Below, one piece after another: positions 27,201 through 29,957 of a stretch of DNA of 64,000 nt. Below the pieces are notes generated by a model, which was not told where the DNA came from, did no database searches, and saw only the letters and a list, made by a program, of their open reading frames with translations. Made by a program: the position numbers and the translations under genes. This stretch comes from Pelagibacteraceae bacterium AG-325-J13 (GTDB taxonomy: Bacteria; Pseudomonadota; Alphaproteobacteria; Pelagibacterales; Pelagibacteraceae), in the NCBI GenBank assembly GCA_003282835.1, contig QBYL01000004.1, positions 1-64,000 on the forward strand. The letters run 5' to 3'. How positions within the stretch are numbered: position 1 is the first letter of the stretch; each line of letters begins with the position of its first letter.

Positions 27201-27657
27201 GGGGACAATTATGTCAATTCAAGAAAAAAAAACCGCTAAGGGTACACCTTTCGCAATAGTTAAGTTTAGTGATAATAAAGGAGAGTTTGAACTTTTCCTT
27301 TTTGCAGAAAATTTAATAAATAATAGAGACAAGATTAGAGAGTCAGACTCTTTTGTTTTAACTTTACAAAAAGATTTAACTGATAAACCTAATCAACGTA
27401 TTAATGTTAAAAAATTATTAAGTATAGACGATATTTTAAATAAACCTTACTCTAAAGTGACTATAGAATTACAAGACAACTTTAACATTGACGAGATAAA
27501 AGACTTGTTAAAGCACAAAGGAAATACACAAATTAGTTTAATTATTAATGATAAAAATAAGAAAATTCATTACAGTCTTCAAGACCCTAGAAAATTTGAT
27601 TGTAATCATCTCAAGATGATGAAAAGTAAGGAATACGTTAAAAAAATCACTGTTTAG
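24250..27657 (+). CDS. dnaE: DNA polymerase III alpha subunit
   Basis: This is the replicative C-family polymerase of 1135 residues. An N-terminal PHP domain starts at KVHSQYSICEG. The catalytic palm includes GPGRGSGAGSLVAY and the metal-binding P402-DFDID-F408. Finger segments ALYRPGPMSN and QYGFNKSHAAAYALISYQTA follow, then a helix-hairpin-helix/OB-fold region (VAGTIMSIQEKKTAKGTPFA). It overlaps lolD by 17 bases and closes the 24-kb unbroken gene string. Confidence 0.96.
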   Translation: MLASNKSFNNIKVHSQYSICEGAIKIDDLADFCKKNKIKSIGLADSYNLCGALEFSEKISKAGTQPIIGTQINLLTDNILGKVTLYATSEEGYKNLTKLSSMSYLQKNSTNEPHCKIEDIIKNNRDIILLTGNYNDLFGKLFLKNKIKHLEKILTNLKMAFKDHLYIEIQRHGEISEKNFENYLLNLSNTLNIPIIASQEVFYLDPSMFEAHDALICIGNKRFLDEKNRLRYNNQHYLKKHEEIEKIFKDLPEALENNYNFHLRFNYKLNKSKPILPSISNNENISAQNELKSQASKGLENRLDNFVFKKDKEKSSDDIKKIYFDRLSHELNIINSMDYSSYFLIVSDYIKWAKKNSIPVGPGRGSGAGSLVAYCLDITDLDPLEFDLIFERFLNPDRISMPDFDIDFCEEQRDKVFEYLKSKYKGGVAHIITFGKLKARMALRDVGRVLGLSYGHVDRICKMVPFDPSRPLTLQESIDREPRFKDEIKANIKVKKLIDLSLKLEGLNRNMATHAAGVVIAGNKLAEQFPLYVDQSSNLILPSTQYDMYSSENAGLVKFDLLGLKTLTVIDKTLKRLASKNIKVDISKISLGDEKVFNLLSTGETTGLFQLESSGMREAIKQMKPNRFDDIIALVALYRPGPMSNIPIYNDCKNGIKTPDYIHPTLKKILEPTYGIIIYQEQVMQIAQILAGFTAGEADILRRAMGKKKKAELDKQKERFINGAIKNGIGKDVANFVFTKIEPFAQYGFNKSHAAAYALISYQTAYLKTYFKEEFIAATMSTELTNTSKLREFVEELKRLNIQLVRPGINECYAEFKAEKNKIFYGLGAIKNVGFEAISNIIQEREKNGKFKSIEDFISRVDIKDVNKLQLEGLVKSGALDEFSQDRNKFFNSIPKIIQQIKSVNDDKFTNQTNLFTEMLTENKFEYIDTKQWTKKELLFEEFKSLGFYVSDHPLNEYNEIFEQLNIISYNDFLKNKNKEALVAGTIMSIQEKKTAKGTPFAIVKFSDNKGEFELFLFAENLINNRDKIRESDSFVLTLQKDLTDKPNQRINVKKLLSIDDILNKPYSKVTIELQDNFNIDEIKDLLKHKGNTQISLIINDKNKKIHYSLQDPRKFDCNHLKMMKSKEYVKKITV

Positions 27658-27661
27658 AAGG

Positions 27662-27689
27662 TTGATTTTTTAGTTAAGTCGTATATATC
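27662..27689 (+). promoter_or_regulatory. Candidate rpsB promoter
   Basis: TTGATT (27662-27667) and TATATC (27684-27689) are separated by 16 bases, each matching four of six consensus bases. The predicted start near 27696 would place transcription just before the structured leader. The region is AT-rich, so this is a moderate call. Confidence 0.35.
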
Positions 27690-27703
27690 AGTATTTAATT
27701 TCG

Positions 27704-27776
27704 CACACAGTTTTTAGGGCATTGTCCTCCCGGTCCAAAAAATGGAGTAACTGTGGTGGATTAACCGGAAAAAAAT
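27704..27776 (+). promoter_or_regulatory. Structured rpsB leader RNA with possible pseudoknot (putative S2 autoregulation)
   Basis: Four mutually compatible pairings can be drawn. CACAGTT (27706-27712) pairs with AACTGTG (27749-27755). Inside lie the hairpins AGGGC-ATT-GTCCT (27716-27728) and TCCA-A5-TGGA (27734-27746). The bases left between them, CCGG (27730-27733), can pair with CCGG at 27765-27768, just before the start codon, as a pseudoknot. The stretch is much richer in G and C than its surroundings. Ribosomal S2 leaders with autoregulatory roles are known in proteobacteria; binding by S2 here is inferred. Confidence 0.65.
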
Positions 27777-28511
27777 ATGAACGTACCAAAAGTAGATATT
27801 AAACAATTATTAGAAGCTGGTGTACACCTAGGACACAAAACCCTTAGGTGGAATCCGAAAATGAAAAAGTATATTTTTGGAGAAAAAAATTCTATTCATA
27901 TAATAGATTTAACTCAAACAGTTGAATTTTTCAAAAATGCGTTAGTCCAAGTTCACAAAATCATTTCAAGTGGTGGTAAATTATTAATCGTATCCACTAA
28001 AAAACAAGCATCAGAACAAGTAAGTGAATTAGCAAAAGAAACAAATCAGTTTTTTGTTAACTATAGATGGCTTGGCGGTATGCTGACTAATTGGAACACA
28101 ATACAAAATTCAATAAAAAGATTAAAAAAATTAACGGATCAGTTGTCTACAGAAAATACAGGTTTTACAAAAAAAGAAATTTTAAAGTTCGGAAAAGAAA
28201 AGGAAAAGCTCCAAAGGTCCTTAGGTGGAATTTCTGAAATGAAAAAAACTCCTGATTTGATTTTTATCATAGACACCAATACCGAGTCGCTTGCTGTTGC
28301 AGAAGCGAAAAAACTTAACATTCCAATTATAGCTGTTTTAGATACAAATTCAGATCCAACTGGCATTGATTTCCCCATCCCTGGTAATGACGATGCAAGA
28401 AGATCTATAAATTTATATTGTAACTTATTAAAAGATACAATTAAAGATGCTGAAAAATTTATAAAATCTTCTGAGCCAAAGGAAAAAAAATCTGAGAAAA
28501 TAAAAAAATAA
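27777..28511 (+). CDS. rpsB: 30S ribosomal protein S2
   Basis: This 244-residue small-subunit protein has the family segments [35 protein letters not shown] and [15 protein letters not shown]. The C-terminal tail is Lys/Glu-rich. It is followed by tsf after 16 bases, the usual pairing. Expression is probably controlled by the leader directly upstream, whose pseudoknot would cover the initiation region. Confidence 0.98.
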
Positions 28512-28527
28512 TCTTTTAGATAATTCA

Positions 28528-29394
28528 ATGTCAAACAAAGATATATTAGATAACATTAAAAAACTAAGAGAACTTACGGGTGTAGGTTTTAAAGATTGTA
28601 AATCAGCTTTGGATGAAAATAACGGAAATATTGAGAAATCTGTAGAGTTCTTAAGAAAAAAAGGTATTGCAAAAGCCACTAAGAAAATGAGCAGGACTGC
28701 CGCGGAAGGTTTAGTTTTAGTTAAAGAAAATCAAGGAGAAATTTCTATTATTGAAATAAATAGTGAAACAGACTTTGTAGCAAAAAATAGTGATTTTATA
28801 TCTTTTTGCAAAGAACTATCAGAAATTAATTTTTTTAACAAAGGTGACTTAGAAAAAATTAATAATTCAAAAATGAAAAATAATATTTTGGTAAAGGACA
28901 ACTTAGTAAATCTGATAGCTAAAATAGGTGAAAAAATTACTATTAGAAGATCTCAATTTTTTGACAGCTCTAATGGATCTAACTTTTTTTATGTACATTC
29001 AGCTATTGAAAAAAATATAGGCAAAATTATTTCTGTAGTTAAATTAGATGGAATCACTAAAGGCAAAAATGATGACATAGGATCAAAGATTTCAATGCAT
29101 ATAACTGCTTCTAACCCTCTGGCAATTGATAAAGATGGAATTAATAAGAGTATAATAGAAAAAGAATTAGAAATAATAAAAGCAGAAATTATTAATTCTG
29201 GAAAACCTAAAGAGATAGCTGAAAAAATTTCTAATGGAAAAATTTCTAAATTCGTTAATGACAATACCTTATTAAATCAAATTTGGATAATGGATCCTGA
29301 AAAAAAAGTGTCTGATATTTTAAAAGAAAATAAAACTGATAAAGATTTGAAAATATTAGACTTTGTTAGATATAAAGTTGGCGAAGGAGTGTAA
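28528..29394 (+). CDS. tsf: Elongation factor Ts
   Basis: EF-Ts recycles EF-Tu-GDP. The 288-residue protein has the N-terminal UBA-like segment LRELTGVGFKDCKSALDENN and the exchange signature INSETDFVAKNSDF. In most proteobacteria pyrH (UMP kinase) follows. Here frr begins 2 bases after the tsf stop, so pyrH is not in its normal place. Confidence 0.97.
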   Translation: MSNKDILDNIKKLRELTGVGFKDCKSALDENNGNIEKSVEFLRKKGIAKATKKMSRTAAEGLVLVKENQGEISIIEINSETDFVAKNSDFISFCKELSEINFFNKGDLEKINNSKMKNNILVKDNLVNLIAKIGEKITIRRSQFFDSSNGSNFFYVHSAIEKNIGKIISVVKLDGITKGKNDDIGSKISMHITASNPLAIDKDGINKSIIEKELEIIKAEIINSGKPKEIAEKISNGKISKFVNDNTLLNQIWIMDPEKKVSDILKENKTDKDLKILDFVRYKVGEGV

Positions 29395-29396
29395 AT

Positions 29397-29957
29397 ATGA
29401 GTTCAGAATTTAATGAAAAAAATTACTCTTCAAAAATGGACAAAACAATTCTAGCTTTAAAAAAAGACCTTTCTACATTAAGAACTGGAAGAGCAAATCC
29501 CAGCATGCTTGATACGATAAAGATAGATGTTTATGGACAATTAATGCCTATTGAGCAATTGGCTACCGTTAGTGTTCCAGAAGCTAGACTAATTTCTATA
29601 CAAGTTTGGGATAAAGCTAATATTACATTAATTGACTCTGCAATTCAAAAGTCAGAGTTAGGTATTAATCCTCAAATAGATGGACAAATTATCAGACTAA
29701 GAATACCAGATTTAACAGAAGAAAGAAGAAAAGATTTAATAAAGATTTTGAAAAATATGGGTGAAAAGTCCAAGGTTTCAATTAGAAATATCAGAAGAGA
29801 AGCAAACGAGGAAATAAAAGATCAATTAAAAGAAAAAAAAATAACAGAAGACGATAATAAAAATTTTGAAAAAAATATACAAAAACTAACAGATAACAAC
29901 ATTCAAGATATAGATAAAATTTTAGCAGATAAAGAAAAAGAGATTTTACAAATATGA
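29397..29957 (+). CDS. frr: Ribosome recycling factor
   Basis: RRF splits post-termination ribosomes with EF-G. The 186-residue protein has the standard length and segments LRTGRANPSMLDTIKIDVYG and PDLTEERRKDLIKILKNMGE, and is coiled-coil-rich as expected. It overlaps uppS by 4 bases. Confidence 0.97.
   Translation: MSSEFNEKNYSSKMDKTILALKKDLSTLRTGRANPSMLDTIKIDVYGQLMPIEQLATVSVPEARLISIQVWDKANITLIDSAIQKSELGINPQIDGQIIRLRIPDLTEERRKDLIKILKNMGEKSKVSIRNIRREANEEIKDQLKEKKITEDDNKNFEKNIQKLTDNNIQDIDKILADKEKEILQI

Follow-up and report, generated by a model that had tools for sequence, protein, structure and literature searches.

The closest described system to the element analysed here goes back to Meyer et al. 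2009 (PMC2704228), who were the first to report the rpsB motif (Rfam RF01815), in Pelagibacter; in Ca. P. ubique, the motif lies in the dnaE-rpsB gap and presents the same four helices, pseudoknot included, that we found in our sequence. The second reference system is the leader of rpsB in E. coli, for which alone autorepression by S2 is an experimental result (PMC10931766; both this text and PMC2704228 cite Aseev 2008). According to the review (PMC10931766), how S2 represses its own translation is mechanistically unclear; the ribosome binding site of E. coli is reported outside the operator, and the deletion of a conserved bulge may abolish the regulation. It should be noted that RF01815 and RF00127 (t44) are both typed 'Gene; sRNA' in Rfam and share no clan, yet they are corresponding rpsB leaders as judged by their anatomy and flanks, and that T44/tff of E. 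coli (213-348 in locus L137) carries the annotation of a putative small RNA (ncRNA).

The window, i.e. the whole stretch of 64,000 nucleotides from Pelagibacteraceae bacterium AG-325-J13 that was analysed, presents the gene order dnaE (stop codon 27655-27657), leader, rpsB, tsf and frr. The genome belongs to SAR11, and the nearest rpsB relatives that carry a name come from uncultured Pelagibacteraceae isolates. The putative regulated gene, rpsB (27777-28511, plus strand), encodes ribosomal protein S2 (TIGR01011, 319 bits against a cut-off of 76.3), and tsf (28528-29394, plus strand), encoding EF-Ts (TIGR00116, 256 bits), is separated from it by 16 nt and is probably cotranscribed. As an observation apart, pyrH (UMP kinase), expected at the tsf-frr junction (29394-29397), is absent from that spot. 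The search for pyrH in 25 Pelagibacteraceae genomes (that of the window and 24 others, many of them 99-100% complete) gave in all 25 only weak matches, with best scores of about 30-49 bits and frames of about 370-425 aa, which are probably other amino-acid kinases; in a sister family, 11 of 13 genomes gave 308-327 bits. UMP kinase may have been lost or replaced in Pelagibacteraceae.

The leader occupies positions 27702-27768, in the gap between dnaE and rpsB-tsf, and is formed by a closing stem (P1), two hairpins (P2 and P3) and a crossing pseudoknot, all on the plus strand. The closing stem had been proposed as a 7-bp helix starting at 27704; the stem is there, but it starts at 27702 and has 10 pairs and a bulged A27705. 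Its 5' strand (27702-27712) was recognized by the minimum free energy (MFE) fold, the Rfam alignment and covariation, and its 3' strand, AACUGUGGUG (27749-27758), by the MFE fold and covariation. The outer pairs are C27702-G27758, G27703.U27757 and C27704-G27756, followed by the bulge, and the inner ones run from C27706-G27755 through U27712-A27749. We extended the start of P1 from 27704 to 27702 because the outer CGC/GUG pairs show compensatory changes in relatives, to AUC/GAU or CUC/GAG; in other relatives (8 of 83 aligned sequences) the middle pair is mismatched. The bulged A was invariant among the relatives compared. Within P1, P2 (27716-27728; AGGGC-AUU-GUCCU, strands 27716-27720 and 27724-27728, one G.U pair) has double changes in each of its four model pairs, and P3 (27735-27745; CCA-AAAAA-UGG, strands 27735-27737 and 27743-27745) also covaries. 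The two inner hairpins of the original prediction are therefore present, and the nested MFE fold reproduces the same P1, P2 and P3. The predicted pairing between two CCGG motifs was also found, extended to five pairs (CCGGU/ACCGG): its 5' strand, in J2-3, is located at 27730-27734 and its 3' strand, in the usual Shine-Dalgarno (SD) position, at 27764-27768, so that the CCGG stops 8 nt upstream of the rpsB AUG at 27777. The GC-rich patch noticed at this place has 44-46% GC content, versus about 14-38% in the surroundings.

The covariance check proposed together with the fold has now been carried out. Inside Pelagibacterales (83 leader sequences, alignment A3), compensatory changes are abundant in P1, P2 and P3; in P1, for example, G27710-C27751 becomes A-U in 25 sequences, U27711-A27750 becomes C-G in 19, and C27708-G27753 becomes U-A in one relative (L099). 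In this alignment, 91.4% of the cells are paired, a value that falls to 29-46% (45.9% at most) when the partner is slid by one to three columns, and double changes occur at 13 pairs versus 8.7 expected from shuffles. Adding other Alphaproteobacteria raised these values to 94.1% paired cells and 15 pairs with double changes. On the same 83 sequences RNAalifold proposed that, instead of P1 and P3, CCGGUCC and GG...ACCGG pair in a nested way; this alternative was rejected because both stems covary. A covariance model built from 43 more distant leaders (R2), which excludes the closest relatives of the window (L027-L060 and L096), matched 27702-27779 with 70.5 bits (E 4e-17), the next best match in the 64 kb reaching 11.9 bits. 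With a lineage-specific model (R1), whose 83 sequences include the window, exactly one copy was found in 172 of the 198 genomes of the order, covering 9 of 9 genera. Furthermore, the leader stands directly before the start codon in all 80 nearest rpsB loci of the genome collection.

From its sequence and predicted fold, we identify this leader as the Pelagibacterales member of the rpsB motif, RF01815, an element already published: it is positioned before rpsB, its long P1 ends in a junction that carries the variable P2 and P3, and its J2-3 forms a 5-bp pseudoknot with the sequence extending P1 on the 3' side, as in Meyer 2009. The Pelagibacter motif that the original prediction had mentioned exists and is the same one, since the gap, the P1/P2/P3 layout and the pseudoknot match PMC2704228. 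The cmscan analysis placed RF01815 on 27702-27785 with 31.2 bits (E 3.4e-4). The Rfam gathering cut-off is 40 bits, a score reached neither here nor in any of the 61 relatives whose genomes were searched first; therefore, routine annotation misses the leader. Three complete members of the family gave 34-38 bits and another one (L106) just passes with 40.5, and in the class as a whole 176 of 288 genomes presented a match, one per genome, 74 of them above the cut-off. The low score is a limit of model sensitivity and not a structural difference. No match to RF00127, the gammaproteobacterial model, was obtained in the genome of the window.

The pseudoknot behaves in another way. Its pairing is kept in 99.5% of the cells of the 83-sequence alignment, and CCGGU/ACCGG is invariant in SAR11 and hardly varies in Pelagibacterales or in the other Alphaproteobacteria sampled, so that inside the class its support is conservation alone. 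It is the comparison between classes that brings covariation, since in Gammaproteobacteria, E. coli included, a compensatory shift to GGGGU/ACCCC was observed. For this comparison we took, in J2-3, the dinucleotide that precedes a conserved GGU and, behind P1, the dinucleotide that follows a conserved AACC; if the stretch had several GGU sites, we kept the site located at J2-3, the reading being partly by eye. Read in this way, CC pairs with GG in Alphaproteobacteria, GG with CC in 26 Gammaproteobacteria, including E. coli K-12, and UG or CG with CG in five others of this class. The gammaproteobacterial J2-3 strands are GGGGU, UGGGU or CGGGU, and the pairing is kept throughout.

Another aspect to mention is the SD sequence, which is absent in 77 of the 79 Pelagibacteraceae leaders, the window included, with an SD-like motif in the other two only. 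In these 79 leaders the 3' strand of the pseudoknot sits in the SD position, 4-10 nt (median 8) from the AUG, that is, within the footprint of the 30S subunit. Among the best-scoring Rfam matches used for this comparison, an SD-like motif is located between the pseudoknot and the AUG in 28 of the 29 leaders from other Alphaproteobacteria and in 30 of the 31 from Gammaproteobacteria, where the two are mostly 14-25 nt apart; L144, the single exception in the latter class, seems to be a parsing error. Relatives have an intact anti-SD, the 16S tail in the family of the window being TGGATTACCTCC. Nevertheless, the missing SD of the leader may be general background only, because such motifs are scarce across the window: among its 54 ATG ORFs of at least 150 aa, they were found in 10 of 42 on the plus strand and in 0 of 12 on the minus strand.

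Taking these results together, we consider with a probability of roughly 80% that the rpsB-tsf mRNA carries this element as a cis-acting 5' leader, of the rpsB motif, that would serve S2 feedback by occlusion of initiation. By analogy with the work in E. coli, feedback repression by S2 is the most likely function. Transcription would most likely begin a few bases before P1, and the leader RNA would fold into P1 with its bulged A, P2 and P3, while J2-3 would pair with the strand that follows P1. Any uS2 in excess over free 30S subunits would bind and stabilize the fold, in E. coli together with bS1; the genome of the window encodes an S1-like protein whose TIGR00717 match, 439 bits over positions 2-516, lies under the curated cut-off of 577. 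The closed pseudoknot would then deny the 30S subunit access to the start codon, and the outcome would be less S2, and EF-Ts with it. Direct occlusion appears to be the simplest reading because the pseudoknot strand of SAR11 occupies the SD position, although it may not be the general mechanism because the E. coli ribosome binding site lies outside the operator. We also propose, tentatively and at somewhat less than even odds, that S2 leader and ribosome binding site have fused in Pelagibacteraceae, with loss of the SD and its replacement by the 3' strand of the pseudoknot, which would give a direct, SD-free on/off gate unlike that of E. coli.

The alternative that survives best is a leader that does not occlude, in which S2 and S1 would bind P1, with its bulge, and J2-3 and trap or exclude the 30S subunit otherwise, as perhaps happens in E. 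coli, with the closeness to the AUG in SAR11 resulting from genome streamlining. The E. coli binding site outside the operator and the possible loss of regulation on bulge deletion (PMC10931766) are in line with it, as are the invariance of the bulged A in our sequences and the scarcity of SD motifs in the window anyway. Against it speaks the narrow spacing to the AUG, by which the pseudoknot strand falls within the footprint of the 30S subunit, and we regard this alternative as doubtful but deserving serious consideration.

Upstream of P1, aligned upstream regions of 36 close loci revealed at conserved spacing a promoter-like block (27662-27689, plus strand) formed by TTGATT (27662-27667) and TATATATC (27682-27689), which a generic sigma-70 scan did not call. 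A candidate transcription start is expected at about 27695-27698, and a start downstream of 27712 is therefore unlikely. Within 27640-27701, an AATTT just before P1 is also kept among close relatives. A generic terminator scan gave no terminator-like site between the leader fold and rpsB. This, together with the location before rpsB in the 80 nearest loci and a conserved fold reaching within 8 nt of the start codon, makes it very improbable that we are dealing with a trans-acting small RNA encoded before rpsB and separate from its mRNA, in spite of the sRNA type of RF01815 and RF00127 and the tff/T44 ncRNA of E. coli. As S2 binding to the SAR11 leader is only inferred, a riboswitch or sensor for something besides S2, or a transcription attenuator, was also considered; with neither a terminator-like site nor an attached metabolic gene, and with a corresponding E. 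coli leader that responds to S2 (PMC10931766, PMC2704228), there is little room for such a function.

Folding statistics of the single sequence do not discriminate: the MFE z-score of the leader is -0.69, an unexceptional folding energy, and a comparable H-type layout appeared in 333 of 5000 dinucleotide shuffles (6.7%). In 12,786 sliding windows of 78 nt this layout was found 53 times, three of them being the leader site, and when more coding sequence was included the nested prediction favoured pairings other than the leader fold. Thus, the leader rises above chance hardly from the sequence of the window alone, and clearly from its relatives. A chance pairing or an element of the DNA level only, which the 6.7% of shuffles might suggest, is practically discarded by the compensatory changes that every helix shows among relatives and by the E-value of 4e-17 of the R2 match.

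These results confirm a known ribosomal-protein leader in SAR11, a group that ranks among the most abundant bacteria of the ocean. The Rfam cut-off hides this leader in the relatives of the window, and covariation supports its pseudoknot across two classes. The SAR11 leaders without SD are a compact system for studying how S2 represses its own translation. The only unusual trait of this otherwise ordinary and already known leader is the knot placed where the ribosome normally docks. In comparison with the published rpsB motif (RF01815, PMC2704228), the dnaE-rpsB gap, the P1/P2/P3 junction, the 5-bp pseudoknot of J2-3 with the 3' extension and the conserved 3' part GUGGUGGAUUAACCGG are alike, whereas the leader of the window scores below the cut-off and has no SD after the pseudoknot; with respect to Ca. 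P. ubique as stated there, its P2 (5 pairs versus 3) and P3 (3 versus 2) are slightly longer. The other alphaproteobacterial leaders (L107-L136) share P1, the bulged A, CCGGU/ACCGG and the AACCGG after P1, but have longer P2 and P3 and, in 28 of 29 cases, an SD in the 9-23 nt between the pseudoknot and the AUG. Finally, the E. coli rpsB 5'UTR (t44, RF00127) coincides in the CACAC...GUGGAGGCAUAAC frame, P1, the pseudoknot geometry and the site before rpsB-tsf, and differs in its GGGGU/ACCCC pseudoknot, its long irregular inner helix and the 24 nt, SD included, that separate the pseudoknot from the AUG.
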